From assembly GCA_024639455.1 (NCBI GenBank), contig JAHEIH010000001.1:1-64000 (forward strand): a stretch of 64,000 nucleotides of DNA, given 5' to 3'. Below the pieces are notes generated by a model. It was not told where the DNA came from, ran no database searches, and saw only the letters and a program-made list of their open reading frames with translations. This stretch comes from Cellvibrionales bacterium. GTDB taxonomy: Bacteria > Pseudomonadota > Gammaproteobacteria > Pseudomonadales > JAHEIH01. Below are positions 40,719-43,066 of the stretch, one piece after another; position 1 is the stretch's first letter; each line of letters opens with the position of its first letter. The position numbers were made by a program, and so were the translations under genes.

Positions 40719-42392
40719 ATGAGCTCTAACCCCATCTATATCCCCTACGCGGGACACATGTTATTAGAATCCCCCCTGTTGAACAAAGCCAGTGGTTTTA
40801 CCCCACAAGAGCGCGCCGAGTTCAATTTAGACGGTTTGTTGCCATCGATTGTTGAGACCATCGAAGAGCAGGTTGGCCGTGCCTACGAACAGTTGACATC
40901 TTTCGAAACACCGATTGATAAGCATATTTTTTTGCGCAATATCCAAGATACCAATGAGACACTTTTTTATCGCTTGGTGGTGGAACACTTAGAAGAGATC
41001 ATGCCGTTGATCTACACCCCGACCGTAGGTGAAGCGTGTCAGAATTTTTCGCATATTTATCGCCGCGCGCGCGGCTTATTTATCAGCTACGAAGATCGCT
41101 ATCGCATCGACGACATTTTGCATAACGCCACTAAGCAAAACGTGCGTGTCATTGTGGTGACCGATGGTGAGCGCATTCTCGGCTTGGGAGACCAAGGGAT
41201 TGGGGGTATGGGGATTTCCATTGGTAAATTGTCGCTGTATGTCGCCTGTGGCGGTATTAGTCCTGCCAATACACTGCCCGTTGTGCTTGATTGTGGTTGT
41301 AACAATGAGGAATTGTTGAATGACCCTATGTACATGGGGTGGCGCCACAAGCGCATCGACGGTGAACAATACGATGAATTTGTCGATTTGTTTATTCAAG
41401 CGGTAAAACGTCGCTATCCCGACGCGATATTGCAGTTTGAAGATTTCGCTAACAAAAACGCCAGCCGTTTGTTAGAGAAGTACCGCGATGAACTGTGCTC
41501 GTTCAATGACGATATTCAAGGCACCGCCTCAGTCACCGTGGCTACATTGATTGCAGCCGCTCACGCTAAGGGTGAGAAACTCTCTGACCAGCGCGTAGTG
41601 ATTGTTGGTGGGGGGTCAGCCGGTTGCGGTATTGCCGAATCAATCATTCAGAAAATGGTGCGTGAAGGTAGCGGCGAAGAAGAGGCGCGCCGTCGTATCT
41701 TTTTAGTGGGTCGAAATGGTCTTTTCCTGCAAAGTATGGATGGCATGACCGACGGCCAACAGAAATTAGCCTTCCCGAATGAGTTGGTGGCGAACTGGTC
41801 GAGCAGTGAAGTACTTCACTCAGTGGTCGAAAACGCCAAAGCCACGGTACTGGTGGGTGTCACCGGGAAACCTGGTTTGTTCGATGAGTTGTTGATCAAT
41901 ATCATGCAGCGCAACACTGATCAACCGATTGTCTTCCCGCTGTCAAATCCCACCTCGCACATGGAAGGCGTCCCCGCAGATATTTTGAAATGGACCAACG
42001 GTAAAGCCATTATTGCAACCGGTAGCCCGATTAAACCAATAGAGTTGAATGGTGAGGTCTATCCGATTGCACAGTGTAACAACAGCTATATCTTCCCCGG
42101 CTTAGGCCTGGGTGTGCTGGCGAGTAAATCGACCCGTATCAGCGATAGCATGTTGATGGCGGCGGCGGAAGAATTGGCGCGTCAATCACCTCGTGTTAAG
42201 GATGGCGTAGGCCCCTTGTTGCCGCCCTTGAGTAATATTCGAAAAATTAGCCACGCCATTGCCTATGCGGTCTATACCCAGGCGATTGAGGATGGTTACG
42301 CTAAGTTGCGTGACCCTGAAGAAATGGATGCGCGGATTGAGAGGTTCTGGTGGCATCCGGAGTATCGTGTATATAAACGTGTTTCCTTCTAG
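40719..42392 (+). CDS. maeA: NAD-dependent malic enzyme (oxaloacetate-decarboxylating)
   Basis: 557 aa, the E. coli MaeA (SfcA) size. The N-terminal malic domain has [20 protein letters not shown] (about 91-110) and the catalytic Tyr/Lys region [19 protein letters not shown]; metal ligands lie in FEDFANKNA and [11 protein letters not shown]; the NAD site is [15 protein letters not shown] (about 289-303). It decarboxylates malate to pyruvate in the cytosol, making NADH and supplying pyruvate during growth on organic acids. Its stop codon lies inside the terminal arm CTAGGAGC of the repeat element downstream. Confidence 0.95.
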
Positions 42393-42514
42393 GAGCTAGT
42401 CACGTTGGCATTACGGCGTTGATCACTATTTTTTATCTCGTCATTTAGGAGAACTAAACTCCTCGTTAAAAAATAGTGATCGCCTTGTACTGCCTGCCTT
42501 ACTGACGCTCCTAG
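42389..42514. repeat. 126-bp imperfect inverted-repeat element between maeA and asparaginase
   Basis: Outer arms CTAGGAGC (42389-42396) and GCTCCTAG (42507-42514) are exact complements. Inside, GATCACTATTTTTTA (42421-42435) pairs exactly with TAAAAAATAGTGATC (42467-42481), and the core AGGAG-AACTAAA-CTCCT (42447-42463) forms a small hairpin; between the exact blocks the arms pair imperfectly (GTCA/TGAC, GGC/GCC). So almost the whole element can fold into one long hairpin. The maeA stop TAG (42390-42392) is part of the left arm. It looks like a MITE- or REP-like intergenic repeat. Confidence 0.75.
42397..42447 (+). repeat. Direct repeat copy 1 (51 bp)
   Basis: The left half of the inverted-repeat element, from TAGTCACGTTGG to CGTCATTTA. 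It recurs 126 bases downstream with one T fewer in its T run and no other change. Confidence 0.9.
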
Positions 42515-42522
42515 GGAATTTT

Positions 42523-42572
42523 TAGTCACGTTGGCATTACGGCGTTGATCACTATTTTTATCTCGTCATTTA
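42523..42572 (+). repeat. Direct repeat copy 2 (50 bp), ending in the asparaginase stop codon
   Basis: Second copy of the left half of the element, identical to copy 1 apart from one T. Its last three bases, TTA on the plus strand at 42570-42572, are the TAA stop of the asparaginase-like gene on the minus strand. The copies plus the hairpin therefore fill the whole gap from stop codon to stop codon. Confidence 0.9.
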
Positions 42573-43058
42573 ACTGTGGGTCGACGTTTTTTTAAAGCTC
42601 ATGCTGGCGCGGTCTTTGGCCACGTCATTGGGGCGGAATATCTCCCCGTTCATCGCGATATATACCCCTGCTGGCAGAAGCTGGCAGGCGGCGCTAGCAA
42701 ATCCAATGTTGTACACCGCATCACTGGCAATAATTCGGGCAGGCTGCATCGCGCCCACCAATACCAAGGTTTTATCCTGTAACTCGCCAATGGCCTTGGC
42801 AGTCTGCACCATGGTATCGGTACCGTGGGTAATCAAGATGTGTTGCTCGGGGCATTGATGTACGGCGTCTTTGATTATCGCTCGGTCAGCATCGTCAATT
42901 TCTAGGCTATCTTTTTTCAGTAGCGAGGTGACACGATAGCTAAAATTGACGTTGGCTTCGTGCAACAGGCGAGATATTTGAGGTTCACCTATCTGAAATT
43001 CGCTCTGAGCATCGAAGTAGATTTTGTCGATAGTACCGCCGGTGGTAAAGATATGCAT
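42570..43058 (-). CDS. Asparaginase-domain protein, single N-terminal domain only
   Basis: About 162 aa from ATG 43058 (MHIFTTGGTIDK), chosen for AGGA six bases before it; an ATG six bases up touches that site. It keeps the first catalytic Thr (TTGGTID) and the ITHGTDTMVQTAKAI block with the second Thr and Asp, so the active-site loop of L-asparaginases is present. The C-terminal domain of the usual 320-340-aa enzyme is absent. Stand-alone N-terminal forms exist in other proteobacteria as I recall, but here a repeat copy supplies the stop codon, so a trimmed end is also possible. Last gene of the pyrC-rnt-amidohydrolase-nfsB unit. Confidence 0.85.
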   Translation of the reverse strand: MHIFTTGGTIDKIYFDAQSEFQIGEPQISRLLHEANVNFSYRVTSLLKKDSLEIDDADRAIIKDAVHQCPEQHILITHGTDTMVQTAKAIGELQDKTLVLVGAMQPARIIASDAVYNIGFASAACQLLPAGVYIAMNGEIFRPNDVAKDRASMSFKKTSTHS

Positions 43059-43066
43059 GGTCATTC

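Follow-up and report, generated by a model that had tools for sequence, protein, structure and literature searches.

The window, that is the whole stretch of 64,000 nucleotides analysed here, carries maeA and, convergent to it, a small gene with an asparaginase domain. Their stop codons are 177 bases apart, and according to a preliminary description this gap is filled by a 126-bp hairpin, the left half of which occurs a second time with 50 of 51 bases retained. Our coordinates agree with this (Table 1). The two stop codons were likewise found where they had been placed: the maeA stop TAG (42390-42392) lies within the left outer arm CTAGGAGC, while the asparaginase stop, which reads TTA at 42570-42572 on the plus strand, lies inside the half copy.

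Table 1. Genes and parts of the hairpin element in the maeA-asparaginase region (window coordinates)
Feature	Position	Strand	Remarks
maeA (malic enzyme)	40719..42392	+	stop TAG overlaps left outer arm of element
Complete hairpin element, 126 bases	42389..42514	+	covariance-model match 42392-42511
Left outer arm CTAGGAGC	42389..42396	+	
Unpaired GTT	42418..42420	+	invariant, 99% in 94 members
Inner arm, left	42421..42435	+	hypervariable, complementary to right arm in every copy
Unpaired TCA	42441..42443	+	invariant
Tip hairpin TTTAG / CTAAA	42444..42458	+	
CTCC facing TCA	42459..42462	+	near-invariant
Inner arm, right	42467..42481	+	15-base exact match to left inner arm
GCC directly after inner arm	42482..42484	+	near-invariant
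Right outer arm GCTCCTAG	42507..42514	+	pairs with CTAGGAGC
T-rich linker GGAATTTT, 8 bases	42515..42522	+	like linker between ribA tandem-array units
Second copy, truncated to left half	42523..42572	+	50/51 bases identical, one T lost
Small asparaginase-domain gene, convergent	42570..43064	-	PF00710, E 2.9e-21; stop codon within truncated copy

The complete element forms all 39 consensus pairs and folds far better than its shuffles (z -7.4 as DNA and -6.7 as RNA), none of 200 shuffles being equally good; prediction of the RNA fold had been proposed in the preliminary description. The covariance model of the family matches the element in the window with E 4e-35, the window copy being one of the training sequences of that model. 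A weak sigma-70-like pattern, TTGGCA-16-TATTTT (9/12), occurs in both copies (42405-42432 and 42531-42558, plus strand).

Dispersed copies and empty sites

A sequence search of the window's own genome (G000; 2.88 Mb, 29 contigs) revealed the further copies that the preliminary description had suggested looking for. Diverged copies were located at about ten loci besides the window, after ribA, a thiolase gene, rho, an ABC-F gene and others. Directly 3' of the ribA stop lies a tandem array of several units with a period of 128 bases (L009; G000:C13:138900-140400, minus strand); it is broken by a run of Ns and has a T-rich linker of the same kind as that of the window. A second tandem array, with a period of about 117-119 bases, was seen in an order relative (L060/L066; G004:C22:347233-347466). 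In genomes of three different families an element follows directly on a thiolase gene (L039 in G000, L067 in G006 and L057 in G017), which may reflect chance, a site occupied since long ago or a preference for this site.

In the genome of a sister species of the same genus (G001), maeA, rho, the ABC-F gene and the gene at L049 end without the element, and three of these four are then followed by a plain hairpin-T terminator. An ABC-transporter gene holds the element at its stop codon in both species (L048 in G000, L115 in G001); there the outer ends are similar and the inner arms entirely different, though complementary within each copy. None of the 80 maeA loci of named genomes has the element at the 3' end of the gene. 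The nearest named maeA genes are those of Marinibactrum, Marinimicrobium and Gilvimarinus, the closest being about 65% identical. Dispersal of the family, presence and absence between species, and family membership of the window copy are well supported.

One origin considered in the preliminary description was a paired terminator built by duplication. An ordinary bidirectional terminator, made locally between convergent genes, would account for the stable hairpin, the convergent genes and the T-rich stretches after the unit, but a terminator scan of the gap finds no intrinsic-terminator pattern, and separate native terminators lie beside other copies. The dispersed copies, the empty sites in the sister species and the result of the scan contradict such an origin, the named maeA loci also speak against it, and we regard it as very improbable. 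It had been stated beforehand that an element found once only and conserved at this locus in all relatives would be just such a terminator; what was found is other copies, and relatives without the element.

How the element may have entered is suggested by its flanks. Of 20 own-genus copies read, eight have TA on the left, and a right TA was found in seven of these eight and in none of the other twelve (hypergeometric, about 1e-4). In the window the flanks read CTA-GGAGC...GCTCC-TAG. Such paired TA flanks fit insertion at a TA dinucleotide, here that of the stop codon, the first purine of the element presumably restoring TAG or TAA. Because TA is self-complementary, however, the flanks may also be an extension of the stem. 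Extension of the palindrome into host sequence beyond the model was significant overall, but the copies with terminal repeats accounted for this; when only the own genus was considered, 304 of 5000 permutations reached the observed value. Target duplications were also to be looked for according to the preliminary description; no base-exact empty site was found.

Orientation behind stop codons and conservation of the fold

The element is placed in a strikingly regular manner. Its 5' end faces the gene reading into it in all 22 scorable copies of the own genus and in all 12 copies of seven order relatives, and in tandem gene pairs the sense orientation prevails by 15 to 0. For convergent pairs, where gene direction alone is uninformative, the 5' end is the near end in 6/6 own-genus cases. 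In 16 of the 22 own-genus copies the element starts at most 10 bases from the stop codon. Several of the remaining copies sit just behind an intrinsic-terminator T-run, and some copies have a native terminator on their downstream side; the element therefore cannot simply be equated with the terminator of the gene. Multi-copy subfamilies in four other genomes (G020, G056, G203 and G200) showed no clear orientation bias among the scorable flanks, many flanks being unscorable. Plain cut-and-paste insertion does not account for the complete bias within the own genus.

A possible explanation could lie in the transcript. If the element were kept as a 3'-UTR element that stabilises, destabilises or ends the upstream RNA, its orientation would reflect this function and its mobility would be past. 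The sense orientation and the closeness of most copies to the stop codon agree with this, and ERIC of Yersinia reportedly alters mRNA stability in one orientation (PMC2229807, PMC10969869). On the other hand, little transcript is to be expected at those copies which lie behind an intrinsic-terminator T-run, and the multi-copy subfamilies elsewhere lack a clear bias. The pairing statistics described below also count against upkeep at the RNA level, which we think unlikely.

What is conserved in the family is structure rather than stem sequence. Identity among seven copies of the own genome is 73-76% in the outer and tip parts but falls to 50-53% in the inner arms; the arms are complementary throughout, with changes on both sides in 19 of 39 pairs. 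Across 94 members 38 of the 39 stem pairs have changed on both sides yet remained complementary, and 87.7% of cells pair, in alignments fitted to the covariance model and to that extent biased toward pairing. The covariation score was 0.714, whereas shuffles scored 0.182 and slid controls no more than 0.142. The unpaired or near-invariant bases hardly vary among these members (GTT 97-99%, TCA 98-100%, CT.C 95-97%, GCC 94-95%).

RNA helices usually hold more G.U than A.C. At the 33 well-paired positions there were 2518 Watson-Crick cells, 45 G.T and 86 A.C, and in the own genus alone 14 G.T and 16 A.C; the acceptor-stem control for these counts comprised only two tRNAs and was uninformative. 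Since G.T is no commoner than A.C, the counts point either to a DNA hairpin or cruciform as the form that is maintained, or to templated correction of one arm by the other. They argue for the DNA hairpin and against a sense RNA in this role.

Templated correction deserves attention because complementary arms might arise by it without any selection, when quasi-palindromes are corrected on a hairpin template during replication. All pair types interchange freely, the G.T and A.C counts show no wobble preference on the sense strand, and near-identical copies in G203 have wholesale differences in their inner arms, although recombination of an inner cassette could also give the latter. Such correction should, however, erase mismatched loops, whereas GTT, TCA, CT.C and GCC are 94-100% invariant. 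It is insufficient alone because the loops would not be preserved, and as an account of the arms it appears distinctly improbable, more so than a role in the transcript.

Relation to ERIC and to other repeated elements

Copies of ERIC were fetched by means of the known core sequence and compared with the family in both directions. The covariance model R2, built from 34 members, matched ERIC copies in register in Pantoea (E 2e-8), Citrobacter (6.8e-7) and Kosakonia (1.8e-4) and more weakly in Rahnella (0.005) and E. coli (0.05), all of these E values coming from small searches. The reciprocal model R3, built from five ERICs, matched the family members L054 (3.5e-5), L101 (2.3e-4) and L102 (9e-4). 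Its matches to L062 and L053, both from the own genus, were weak, and it gave no direct match to the window copy. In a first ERIC test with a smaller model, R1, only the tip region had been matched. In view of the reciprocal matches of R2 and R3, the best reading is a wider family that has ERIC as its enterobacterial branch.

The likeness extends to the architecture. ERIC, also called IRU or RU-1, and the present element are both about 120-127 bases long, form a single long imperfect hairpin with TA flanks and are intergenic and dispersed, often at the 3' ends of genes. In both the tip stem has TCA facing CTCC, and the positions of GTT and GCC match. A TA duplication of ERIC is given in reviews (PMC2229807, PMC2759123). 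The present element differs in its longer inner arm and its occurrence far beyond Enterobacterales, and in the present genus copies within one genome differ widely in stem sequence with pairing kept and stand in near-complete sense orientation behind stop codons. It is not enterobacterial ERIC proper: the sequence is too diverged, R3 missing the window copy, and the nearest named maeA genes belong to the three genera mentioned above. ERIC has been reported from E. coli, Yersinia pestis and Vibrio cholerae (PMC2267715), and the survey texts consulted place it in Enterobacterales and Vibrionaceae. Priority on its wider distribution is uncertain because of the work of Zo (2011) on ERIC divergence among Gammaproteobacteria, known to us as cited in a review (PMC10969869). 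Unnamed stem-loop families of Pseudomonas, for instance Ppu-9 with 124 bases (PMC2267715), might be members too. A copy on a plasmid of Candidatus Fukatsuia symbiotica (L311, 157-277) is an enterobacterial element closer to the non-enterobacterial core than ERIC is, and is a possible intermediate between the two.

Of the origins that the preliminary description had put forward, a MITE-like mobile element stood, and a paired terminator and a REP in the strict sense fell. The element is short, non-coding, bounded by inverted repeats, multi-copy and polymorphic between relatives, as MITEs are; its homology to ERIC copies, its imperfect hairpin of ~127 bases and its dispersed intergenic copies place it in the ERIC superfamily. 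We therefore read the gap, with a probability of about 0.68, as occupied by an ERIC-like miniature mobile hairpin in two tandem copies, one complete and one truncated. By this reading the element is a MITE of the ERIC superfamily, and the TA in the stop codon of maeA would have been its point of entry. The incoming copy would have duplicated that TA, and its first G would have restored the TAG stop of maeA. Tandem duplication and truncation would then have produced the half copy which now carries the asparaginase stop.

Other hairpin elements resemble this one in part. REPs are units of 20-40 bases tagged with GTAG or CGTC whose ends often provide the TAG stop of neighbouring genes, and RAYT reportedly binds and cleaves single-stranded REP DNA (PMC3733652). 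REP and the present element have in common a DNA hairpin with unpaired bases, but REP stems are conserved, and a unit of 126 bases without the GTAG/CGTC tag rules out identity with REP. NEMIS/Correia and RUP are non-coding MITEs of about 100-160 bases with TA duplication (PMC2229807); compared by description, they are alike in size and TA but have fixed terminal inverted repeats. The integron attC site also has features in common with our element. attC sites act as single strands whose fold leaves extrahelical bases and whose stems vary, and they lie directly behind stop codons; the present element resembles them in its unpaired bases, its variable stems and its position. Its outer ends, however, are GAAGC/GCTTC-like, its copies are scattered and not in a cassette array, and the RYYYAAC and GTTRRRY boxes of attC are absent from the ends read directly.

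Distribution, terminal repeats and mode of recognition

Of 274 genomes sampled from the class, 110 gave full-length matches to R2, as did 67 of 299 sampled from the phylum; copy numbers per genome are lower bounds because scoring was confined to 12-13 candidates in each genome. The hits that were read have the common core GCGTTR-arm-AAATGCTCATTTAC....GTAAACTCCGCTTT-arm'-GCCTTG. Among the named carriers are plasmids of Pseudomonas and Halomonas, in which the matched stretch bears no annotated feature. Phage records gave no match to the element, plasmids gave none to the maeA region, no Rfam family scored above its gathering score, and a literature search by motif letters returned only unrelated papers.

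In some genomes the core is framed by terminal repeats, which differ from case to case. A subfamily in G203 has GAACCTGTTCA ends with 3-base TNA flanks (TAA, TTA, TGA), the left and right flank agreeing in 14 of the 16 copies read, and this genome contains multi-copy subfamilies with identical copies; further subfamilies end in TCCTACTG, CAGGCTGTTGA or GGGCRCCTCTAAAAA. These ends and flanks recall IS5-type elements. In G203 the connection consists of the resemblance in ends and target and of a short remnant which Pfam does not recognise. Searches of the window's own genome yielded no transposase or recombinase with matching ends. No complete transposase with the same ends as the subfamilies was found either, and the IS5-type connection is therefore no more than a lead. 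The differing terminal repeats and the target duplications of 2-3 bases suggest that in these genomes a resident cut-and-paste transposase probably acts in trans. Four G203 copies (L181, L184, L185 and L188) have an extra palindromic insert of 24 bases (CACCCCTCAAGGGGGTACCGAGG) exactly at the invariant GTT, and L167 carries another small insert, unlike the first, at GCCT on the facing side. These GTT/GCCT loops may be the target of a second small element.

Judging by the pattern of conservation, the form in which the ERIC-like hairpin is recognised may be a folded single DNA strand or a cruciform displaying the invariant GTT, TCA/CTCC and GCC. If a folded strand were recognised by its fixed unpaired bases, the stems would be free to change in sequence provided that pairing holds. 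More tentatively, and rather against the odds in our judgement, ERIC and the present element could belong, as separate branches, to a single class of mobile DNA spread over the phylum, with folded-strand recognition through fixed unpaired bases, free stems and ends borrowed from different transposons. If this is true, they would be further examples of structure-recognised DNA beside attC and REP.

ERIC has been known since 1990-91, and a wider family bears on how it moves and why its shape persists. The covariance model can be used to annotate many repeats that are at present unlabelled, and the invariant unpaired bases together with covarying, wobble-poor stems provide a testable target, namely a protein that binds the folded strand.
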